Shown here: one piece after another, positions 11,522 to 17,609 of the stretch
Position numbering within the stretch: position 1 is the stretch's first letter
Layout: each line of letters begins with the position of its first letter
Source of the DNA: Truepera radiovictrix DSM 17093
GTDB taxonomy: Bacteria > Deinococcota > Deinococci > Deinococcales > Trueperaceae
Reading direction: 5' to 3'
Length of the DNA stretch: 64,000 nt
Assembly: GCF_000092425.1 (NCBI RefSeq)
Contig: NC_014221.1
Coordinates: 2,733,001 to 2,797,000, forward strand
Notes under the pieces: model-generated
The model's input: only the letters and a program-made list of their open reading frames with translations
Databases searched by the model: none
Told to the model about the DNA's origin: nothing
Made by a program: the position numbers and the translations under genes

Positions 11522-12712
11522 ATGACCCAACGACGTTTTGCGACCCGTGCGGTCCATAGCGGTCACGAACCCGACCCCGTGACCGGCGCGCACGCCCCGC
11601 CTGTCTACCAGACCTCGACGTTTGCCTACGGTTCGTTCGCGCGCGGCCGGCGGCTCTTCGCAGGCGAGGAGGAGGGTTACCTGTACGGCCGCATCGCCAA
11701 CCCGACGACCCGCGCGTTTGAACGCAAGCTCGCCGACCTCGAGGGGGCCGAAGACGCCCTCGCGTTTTCGAGCGGGATGGCGGCAGTCGCCGCGCTCACG
11801 CTCACCTTTTTGCGCCCCGGCGACGAACTCCTCTTTATCGGCCCCCTCTATGGCGGCACCGAGGGGTTCTTCCACGACGTCCTGGCGCCCTTTGGCGTGC
11901 GCGTCACCGAGCTCGCGAGCGAGCGGGAGCTAGCGGCGGCTCTAAGCGAACGCACGCGCATGGTCTACCTCGAGACGCCGACCAACCCGACCCTGAAGCT
12001 TATCGACCTCGCCGAGGTCGCTCGCCTCACCGCCGGGCGCGAGGTGCTCACCGTCGCCGACAACACCTTCGCCACCCCCTACCTGACGCGGCCTTTGGAG
12101 CACGGCCTGACCTTCGCGCTCCACTCGGCCACCAAGTACCTGGGCGGTCACGGCGACGCCATCGGCGGCGTGCTCGCCGGCCCCGCCGCGCTGCTCGCCG
12201 AGGTGCGCAGCGAAGGCCTGCGGCACGTCGGCGGTTGTCTGGGGCCGTGGGAGAGCTTTTTGCTCCTGCGCGGCACCAAAACGCTCGCGCTCCGCATGGA
12301 GGCGCACTGCGCGGGCGCCGCGAGGGTCGCCGAGGCGCTCCGGGGGCATCCGGCCGTGGCGCGGGTCTTCTACCCCGGCCTCCCCGAGCACCCCGGTCAC
12401 GAGGTCGCCCGCAAGCAGATGCGCCACTTCGGCGGGATGGTGTCGCTCGAGCTGCGCGGGGGGCTGCAGGCGGCGGAGCGCTTTTTAGACGGCCTGACGC
12501 TCTTTACCCAGGCGGTGTCTTTGGGCGACGTCGAATCGCTCGCCACGCACCCCGCGAGCACCACGCACCAGCTTTTAGACGCCGAGACCCGCGAGCGCCA
12601 AGGGATCACGGACGGCTTGGTGCGGCTCTCGGTCGGTATCGAAGACCCGCGCGACCTCTGTGACGACCTCTTGAGGAGCCTCGACAAGCTCGCCGAAAGC
12701 GTCGCGGTCTAG
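11522..12712 (+). CDS. PLP-dependent trans-sulfuration enzyme (Cys/Met metabolism family)
   Basis: 396 aa, the usual length for the family. PLP-phosphate contacts YGRIANPT and SSGMAA, the motif VADNTFATP and the Schiff-base lysine in LHSATKYLGGHGD (about residue 205) are present. Members include cystathionine gamma-synthase, cystathionine gamma-lyase, O-acetylhomoserine sulfhydrylase and methionine gamma-lyase, which cannot be separated by eye. Its location just upstream of metF-metH favours a methionine or cysteine pathway role. Followed by a GC hairpin with TTTT, so it ends its own transcript. Confidence 0.88.
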   Translation: MTQRRFATRAVHSGHEPDPVTGAHAPPVYQTSTFAYGSFARGRRLFAGEEEGYLYGRIANPTTRAFERKLADLEGAEDALAFSSGMAAVAALTLTFLRPGDELLFIGPLYGGTEGFFHDVLAPFGVRVTELASERELAAALSERTRMVYLETPTNPTLKLIDLAEVARLTAGREVLTVADNTFATPYLTRPLEHGLTFALHSATKYLGGHGDAIGGVLAGPAALLAEVRSEGLRHVGGCLGPWESFLLLRGTKTLALRMEAHCAGAARVAEALRGHPAVARVFYPGLPEHPGHEVARKQMRHFGGMVSLELRGGLQAAERFLDGLTLFTQAVSLGDVESLATHPASTTHQLLDAETRERQGITDGLVRLSVGIEDPRDLCDDLLRSLDKLAESVAV

Positions 12713-12733
12713 CCCCCTCTTGAGCCCCCGCGG

Positions 12734-12749
12734 CGGGCGCGCCCGTTTT
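12734..12749 (+). terminator. Terminator CGGGCGCGCCCG + TTTT
   Basis: A self-complementary 12-mer (12734-12745) followed by TTTT, just after the trans-sulfuration gene. An outer GAGCCC/GGGCTC pair lengthens the stem. Confidence 0.6.
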
Positions 12750-13110
12750 GGGCTCACGGGTGTGAGGGCGGCGCAGCAGGTGACGCTAAAGCCGCCCTCT
12801 CGGCCGAACGCCGGGGTGGCGTTAGCCGACCCATTGACGCGCGCTCACGAGAGGGTGAGAATAGAGGCTCGAGCGCCCGCGCTCGAGCACCGCAACCGAG
12901 GGATCCGGCCCGAAACCCCGAGCCCACACCTACCCACCACACGGAGCGCCCGACCGAAGCGCCCCGCTTGCACGGGCTCGGTCAGAGGTTGCAGCGGCCC
13001 GCTTTCATCTAATCGGGCGCCCCTGCCGGCCAGCGCACGGCCACGATGACCCTGCTGGACTGATGAGAAGGGCGGGAAACCGCGCTTCTGCAGCTTTCGA
13101 GGAGGGCCTT
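12750..13110 (+). promoter_or_regulatory. Structured 5' leader of metF-metH, candidate cis-regulatory RNA
   Basis: About 360 nt without an ORF but full of helices. CCCTCTCG (12795-12802) can pair with CGAGAGGG (12848-12855), and the latter is also part of a local CTCAC/GTGAG hairpin (12844-12859). GCTCGAGCGC/GCGCTCGAGC (12867-12888) is a perfect 10-bp stem. CCGAGCCC (12918-12925) and GACCGA (12952-12957) compete for the same partner (12974-12983). Mutually exclusive pairings in front of methionine genes suggest a riboswitch-like element, but it does not match the SAM-I, SAH or cobalamin consensus that I know. Confidence 0.4.
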
Positions 13111-13901
13111 TTGTCTTACCTGCAACCCGACTACACCCCCCGCGTCTCCATCGAACTCGTCGCCCGCAGCCTCGAAGGCTTGGCCGCAGAGCTCGAGACC
13201 ATCCGGGCGCGCTTTCCCTTCGTGGACACCGTCAACATCCCCGACCTCACGCGCTTCGCGCTGCGCAGCACGGACGCCTGCGCGGCGGCCCAGCGGTGCG
13301 TGCGCCGCGCCATCCCGCACCTGCGGGCGGTCGCCACCGACCTCAAAGACCTCAGGCCCCTCCTGAGGCACCTCGACGAGGCCGAGCTCCACGAGGTGTT
13401 GGTGGTCGCGGGCGACCCCCCGGCCGACATGCGCTACGCGGTCTACCCCACGTCTAGCGTGCAGCTCATCCGAGCGATCAAGGCGGCGCTACCGCACGTC
13501 ACGGTCTACGCCGCCCTCGACCCCTACCGCCAGTCGTTCGTCAGAGAACGTGACTACGCGCTTGAAAAGCTCGAGGCCGGCGCGAGCGGCCTCTTTACCC
13601 AACCCTTTTTCGACCTCAGGCTCATGCACGTCTACCGCGAGCTGCTCCCCGGCGTCACCCTCTACTGGGGCGTGACGACGGTGACCACGGCGCGCTCGCT
13701 GGGGTACTGGCAGACCCGCAACCGCGCGATCTTCCCCGCCGACTTCGCGCCGACGCTCGCCTGGAGCCGCGACTTCGCGGCGCGGGCGCTCGAGTTTGCG
13801 CGGCAGACCCGCAGCAACCTCTACTTCATGCCGATTAAAAGCCGTTTGGAGGACTTTTTGGGGGGCGTGCTGACGCCGCAGCGCCTGGGCGTGGGGGCGG
13901 T

Positions 13902-13905
<4 letters not shown>
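13111..13905 (+). CDS. metF: Methylenetetrahydrofolate reductase family protein (short MetF)
   Basis: 264 aa. Members reduce 5,10-methylene-THF to 5-methyl-THF, the methyl donor for MetH. Family-type features seen are VVAGDPP near residue 115, ELHEVLVV before it and [12 protein letters not shown] near 168 (TQ-FFD). It is shorter and more divergent than E. coli MetF (about 296 aa). TTG 13111 is taken as start because GAGGAGG lies 5 nt upstream and the beta-strand VSIELV follows soon after; the frame is open further upstream without a better signal. Its TGA overlaps the ATG of metH (ATGA), so the two are co-translated. Confidence 0.75.

Positions 13906-17598
<3,693 letters not shown>

Positions 17599-17609
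<11 letters not shown>

Follow-up and report, generated by a model that had tools for sequence, protein, structure and literature searches.

The leader of metF-metH in Truepera radiovictrix DSM 17093 is, judged from its sequence, a descendant of the SAM-I (S-box) riboswitch and homologous to the SAM-I elements of the Trueperaceae. On balance it seems to have lost SAM binding, so that we regard it as SAM-blind and probably retired. Three changes would have led to this state: (i) closure of the P3 pocket by A45G, A46G, and U57C, (ii) replacement of the P1 5' strand by a self-contained 10-bp hairpin, and (iii) growth of a third helix into the kink-turn bulge. Positions below are those of the window, the whole stretch of 64,000 nucleotides that was analyzed.

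Homology to SAM-I riboswitches

Rfam finds no SAM match in the window or in locus L003; the gathering score of RF00162 (44.4 bits) is not reached. An earlier note on this DNA proposed a search with the SAM, SAH, cobalamin, and THF models, and this search turned out negative for the leader: in 12300-13300 none of these models, nor those for SAM-II, SAM-III, and SAM-IV, gives a match even at E up to 10. Of all Rfam families, none scores above its threshold in the leader; the matches CRISPR-DR29 (17.1 bits) and D12-methyl (17.0 bits) are at chance level. Cobalamin, SAH, SAM-II/III/IV, THF, and T-box elements were also weighed by eye, and Rfam gave no support to any of them.

The homology was recognized with family-specific models. 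R1, a covariance model built from 28 Trueperaceae SAM-I elements with the window left out, assigns 34.4 bits to the leader, its sole match in the 64 kb. Over the whole host genome (3,260,398 bases) R1 has two matches, the metY leader with 121.8 bits and the metF leader with 34.4 bits (E 1.3e-6). Over 39 genomes, the next scores down are 32.6 and 32.3 bits, from SAM-I elements in the genomes G073 and G101, followed by a drop to 17.5. The 3'-half model R2, built with both the window and L127 (see below) included, gives the leader 58.6 bits. When the leader serves as a DNA query against its own genome, a second place is retrieved at 77% identity, and this is the SAM-I element before metY; this metY leader is intact (70.0 bits with Rfam).

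One other genome of the window's genus is present in the comparison set, G109 (uncultured Truepera sp. AVDCRST_MAG86). Its element L004 is a clear SAM-I (57.6 bits) that ends about 40 bases upstream of metF, at the same place as the leader studied here. The idea of a riboswitch-like leader tied to methionine, put forward in the earlier note, was right. The same note had stated that the leader lacks the consensus cores and may be a divergent or new RNA class. The former statement is wrong, as the SAM-I core is present, though interrupted and altered; of the latter, the divergence from the known consensus stands and the new class does not, because the family-specific models and the clear SAM-I at this site in G109 lead to SAM-I. 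Thus, as far as sequence comparison can tell, the leader is an altered SAM-I with a largely kept frame and not an unknown class.

With E up to 0.1, 33 of the 39 genomes of the family contain SAM-I elements (27 of 39 above the cut-off); a phylum-wide search finds them in 99 of 111 genomes. Among the 52 metF loci found, one belongs to the window's genus (L075, 73% MetF identity, on the same contig as L004); L077 and L078, titled Truepera sp. (G096 and G101), have MetF identities of 54% and 51% and are grouped outside this genus. R1 reveals no further leader element at 50 metF loci; its one strong match in this set, L088 (96.4 bits), corresponds to the contig that bears L068, the element with the metY remnant. 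At 57 metF and metH loci, R2 finds leader elements in L129 (the window), L130, L132, and L135. Weak R2 matches in the same loci are L021 (21.1 bits) and L143 (15.3 bits).

Anatomy of the leader

The anatomy of the leader (Table 1) was placed by alignment with three genus relatives (L004, L048, and L054). R1 initially put the 5' half into the insert (12931-12990). This placement was set aside for P2 at 12892-12992, whose letters agree with P2 in L004 and L048; in addition, R1 run without filters separately finds 12897-12917.

Table 1. Features of the metF-metH leader and its surroundings in the window
Feature	Position	Strand	Remark
PLP-enzyme gene (Cys/Met metabolism)	11522-12712		function judged from sequence; 5' neighbor of the leader
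Predicted promoter TTGACG-17-GAGAAT	12834..12862	+	sole sigma-70-type match in 12650-13130
Perfect 10-bp palindromic hairpin	12867..12888	+	stands at the site of the P1 5' strand
P2a 5' strand GCAAC	12892..12896	+	same letters as P2a of L004; complementary to 12988-12992
Kink-turn G2n A1n	12898..12899	+	alignment to L004, L048, L054
P2b GGG/CCC, loop AUCCGG	12900..12911	+	R1 with filters off: 12897-12917, 5.4 bits
Pseudoknot 5' strand CCGG	12905-12908	+	in the P2b loop
Insert in the kink-turn bulge	12912..12984	+	closed by the 8-bp P2c, 12918-12925/12974-12981; not in L004, L048
Kink-turn G1b A2b, 3b (G12987), P2a 3' strand GTTGC	12985..12992	+	
P3 with the former SAM pocket	12994..13020	+	terminal loop TTTCATCTAA kept
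J3/4 pseudoknot strand CCGG	13026..13029	+	complementary to 12905-12908
P4 CCAGC/GCTGG, family-specific apex ACGATG	13030..13058	+	
P1 3' strand GATGAG	13062..13067	+	without partner
Hairpin AGAAG..CTTCT 3' of the aptamer	13066..13089	+	site of the P1-competing hairpin in L004; pair probability 0.98-1.00
Ribosome-binding site GAGGAGGG and TTG start of metF	13099..13113	+	
metF, short type, 264 aa	13111..13905	+	
metH	13902..17609	+	

The kink-turn letters G19, A20, G35, and A36 are all kept, but a 73-nt insert splits them, and 3b.3n is G-C. The pseudoknot is CCGG/CCGG versus CUGG/CCAG in 28 of 28 rows of alignment A1, a comparison of complementarity only. Of the conserved positions named in the available part of PMC3764141, the leader retains the ones in the kink-turn, in P2b, and in the G-C pairs of P3, and it has lost A45, U57, and the letters of the P1 5' strand. 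A61 is C in the window, L048, and L004 alike. The SAM-I elements of Trueperaceae share the P3 loop YCAU and the P4 apex ACGAU (alignments A3 and A4), which are inconspicuous in the Rfam consensus.

Changes in P3, P1, and P2

The numbering of the pocket follows the T. tengcongensis structure and was mapped onto the leader by the present analysis. A45 is replaced by G (12996), A46 by G (12997), and U57 by C (13018); we take these three positions to be SAM contacts. The surroundings of the pocket are kept (C44 at 12995, C47 at 12998, G58 at 13019), with the pairs C44-G58, G43-C59, and C47-G56 in place. Thus, the AA/U internal loop becomes a continuous P3 helix with one bulged G. A45 and U57 of P3 are part of the conserved SAM-I pocket as presented in the accessible text of PMC3764141. 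In a 44-row alignment inspected by eye, L073 is the only other element without both A45 and U57; apart from it, A45 is missing only from L067 and U57 only from L068.

The P1 5' strand, CCTCATC in L004, corresponds, in an alignment without gaps, to CCCGCGC in the window, which falls within the loop and the 3' arm of the palindromic hairpin. This perfect 10-bp stem (2-nt loop) had been noticed from the letters as a feature of a switch; the stem exists, with a pair probability of 0.95-1.00 in a transcript from 12863, a stem of 10 bp being present in only 9 of 2000 mononucleotide shuffles, and it stands at the site expected for the P1 5' strand. Its 3' arm holds CTCGAGC, aligned with J1/2 (G11 A12 G13) of L004. 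The palindrome also scores terminator-like on the minus strand. Downstream of the promoter, no good 5' partner is found for GATGAG, and the four-way junction lacks its closure by P1. The best alternative, a long-range substitute for P1 at 12791-12802, was rejected: 11 of 300 shuffles reach an energy as good, it lies upstream of the promoter, and it also competes with a 9-bp local hairpin (12764-12772/12791-12799).

In P2, the strands CCGAGCCC and GGGCTCGG form P2c, by which P2 becomes a three-way junction; the P2 stretch folded alone yields P2a, P2b, and P2c. Mutually exclusive partners had been claimed for 12974-12983, and both pairings are present: an 8-bp helix of 12974-12981 with 12918-12925, and a 6-bp helix of 12978-12983 with 12952-12957. 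The 8-bp helix, however, is explained as the extra hairpin of P2 and not as part of a switch.

Promoter and transcript

The single promoter match in 12650-13130 compares with a mean of 0.0 in 50 shuffles. The related L004 also has TTGACG, about 60 nt upstream of its aptamer. The metF transcript probably begins near 12869, i.e., within the 10-bp hairpin, which would make the metF leader about 242 nt long, and helices upstream of 12862 are probably outside this transcript. The leader is indeed structured (folding z -2.72; 2 of 100 shuffles as good). The other alternative helix that had been proposed, 12848-12855 (CGAGAGGG) with 12795-12802 (CCCTCTCG), is perfectly complementary in its letters, but given the predicted promoter at 12834-12862, this pair is probably absent from the metF RNA unless there is read-through. 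Translation of metF probably starts with TTG at 13111, with GAGGAGGG immediately upstream. The 9-bp local hairpin at 12764-12799, with the strands GAGGGCGGC and GCCGCCCTC, lies between the PLP-enzyme gene and the metF promoter and has no T run.

Related elements and known systems

A second altered leader is L127 (1414-1590; genome G100 from another genus), also before metF-metH. It contains the 3' half of SAM-I, scored at 64.3 bits by R2, a model built with L127. Its pocket is replaced by fully paired GCAAC/GUUGC, P1 is intact (CUCAUC/GAUGAG), and P2 is rebuilt with an extra GCCGC hairpin. G100 also has an intact element, L046, before metY. The elements that lead metF or metH are those of the window, L004, L127, L071, L072, and L065, and the pocket is closed in two of these six. 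A CTCGAG hairpin occurs upstream in both the window and L127; it was rejected as a homologous feature, as its places differ relative to P1 and it may be due to chance. The L068 element (1712-1837) is a SAM-I that carries U57G; behind it lies a metY remnant (1893-2201) in which only residues 1-71 and 360-427 are matched, a case of decay elsewhere. In L061, L062, and L074, metY elements from three species of one genus, A46G and changes at C48 and G56 in the pocket were noted by eye. On a Deinococci bacterium contig (L008), two tandem c-di-GMP-II riboswitches are located near metF (1344-1261 and 1154-1069, minus strand).

The three-way P2 recurs in L159, L160, L161, L163, L063, and L064, where a hairpin follows directly after P2b on the P2 3' strand. 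It was checked pair by pair in the window and four of these six elements, and by eye and fold in L063 and L163. The six belong to three families of the order (f1, f2, and f3); L160 and L161 precede metY and L063 precedes metK. The hairpin after P2b is the likeness to the window, whereas GCAGCAACC, GGUGCU, P1, and a normal pocket are kept in these elements. The layout is not described for SAM-I in the available parts of PMC2258182, PMC3764141, PMC4005666, and PMC4316175. It resembles the k-junction of TPP riboswitches in that a kink-turn is elaborated to a three-way junction; however, according to the portions of PMC4005666 and PMC10573300 at hand, the third helix of k-junctions sits on the non-bulged strand, while in the window it is on the bulged strand, between P2b and G1b.

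With respect to RF00162, P2a, the kink-turn G.A letters, P2b, the pseudoknot, P3, P4, and the P1 3' strand can all be placed in the window, and the gene context is that of the SAM-I in the sister genome. The differences are that the window falls below Rfam detection, A45/A46/U57 are replaced, the P1 5' strand is missing, and P2 has an extra helix. A search of the literature on Truepera riboswitches gave nothing relevant, and none of the matches listed for degenerate or vestigial riboswitches concerns SAM-I.

Selection or decay

At columns identical in the three genus relatives, 38 of 40 G/C sites of the core are kept. In the P3 loop and P4 apex, 10 of 10 A/T sites are kept, compared with 4 of 12 in the core (Fisher p 0.0017 for loops versus core, with regions chosen after seeing the data). 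Retention of G/C sites is lower in P4, at 4 of 10 (p 0.0003 for core versus P4), where the alignment is doubtful. In the pseudoknot, both strands are altered and the pairing is preserved. These non-random changes, together with the two-sided recoding of the pseudoknot, suggest some structural selection.

Other observations point to retirement. Pair retention (16 of 17) is not significant versus random placement of the same changes (P 0.19; 0.07 without the loop), both changes in the pseudoknot are transitions from A/T to G/C, and A-to-G or T-to-C transitions account for six of the 10 changes at conserved core A/T and G/C columns. The kink-turn position 3b.3n is C.C in L004 and G-C in the window; a Watson-Crick pair at this position prevents kink-turn folding in ions alone (PMC4382518, in the part available). 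In the predicted ensemble of the whole leader, P2a and P4 have probabilities of only 0.00-0.02, and hence the placed frame rests more on homology than on folding. It is because of the non-significant pair retention, the transitions, the loss of P1, the Watson-Crick 3b.3n pair, and an ensemble without P2a and P4 that we favor a retired element.

The possible consequences can be seen by comparison with L004. There, the P1 3' strand runs on into AGAAGAG, a potential partner of CUCUUCU. With P1 forced in the fold, CUCUUCU is released and the ribosome-binding site is paired throughout, at an unpaired probability of 0.00-0.01 versus 0.00-0.44 in the free fold; in this model, the L004 leader looks like a translational OFF switch. 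In the window, the P1 5' strand is replaced by a hairpin of its own, so that SAM could no longer stabilize P1. The hairpin at 13066-13089 is predicted to be formed nearly always, and downstream of the promoter nothing competes well for GATGAG, so SAM could not act through P1. With the pocket closed as well, metF-metH would most likely be expressed without SAM feedback from the leader, while the metY leader keeps a normal SAM-I. Expression locked in the ON state was considered and dropped, as the window has no clear P1-dependent difference at the ribosome-binding site like that of L004. This site is predicted to be largely paired whether or not the aptamer is formed; constitutive ON expression is therefore unsupported, and we make no claim on the resting level.

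Alternative explanations

The signs of structural selection could also mean that the leader is a functional SAM-I variant, its frame selected and its rewritten P3 and J1/2 sensing another metabolite of methionine or one-carbon metabolism. The core G/C sites and loops are kept, the pseudoknot is recoded, and all three pocket positions are altered while C44-G58, G43-C59, and C47-G56 stay; L127 is a second metF-metH leader with a closed pocket. There is also a precedent: in the available text of PMC10853860, spermidine riboswitches are SAM-I variants in which J1/2 and the P3 internal loop are changed, i.e., SAM-I can be re-specified at these sites. The window shares with them the SAM-I frame and the changed regions, but they precede polyamine genes in Gram-positives (PMC10853860, same portion), and the window precedes metF-metH. 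Moreover, P1, the switching element of SAM-I, has no 5' strand here, the window's version is seen in one genome only, and the pocket-altered L067, L068, and L073 look like scattered decay. L127 differs in P2, without the CUGG pseudoknot strand there, and thus the two leaders define no single consensus. For this leader, a changed ligand seems rather unlikely, though it is the main rival of the retired switch. The wider idea that both leaders form a re-specified branch of Trueperaceae SAM-I, with closed P3, an extra P2 helix, and another ligand or none while metY in the same cell keeps a SAM-sensing element, is likewise doubtful.

Binding of SAM itself by a shifted pocket, with continued regulation of metF-metH, appears quite improbable. 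A46G does occur in well-scoring SAM-I elements, e.g., L069 (metY, G074; 79 bits with RF00162), and G11, C44, G58, and the G.A letters of the kink-turn are unaltered; but neither A45 nor U57 is retained, the 10-bp hairpin ties up J1/2, and P1 is missing. Hardly credible is an unrelated new RNA class, or a GC-rich chance fold with a coincidental likeness to SAM-I. It would fit the Rfam scores, all below threshold in the leader, and is strongly contradicted by the genome-wide E of 1.3e-6 with the window-free model R1 and by L004, the intact SAM-I that the sister genome carries at this place.

Implications

SAM-I is among the best-studied riboswitches, and in the literature surveyed, as far as its available text goes, spermidine is the sole natural change of ligand. 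The presence of an intact and a pocket-closed SAM-I in one genome offers a clean pair for the analysis of riboswitch retirement or re-tasking. The three-way P2, found in seven elements from three families, suggests that the bulge of a kink-turn can carry a whole helix, unlike the arrangement in k-junctions.
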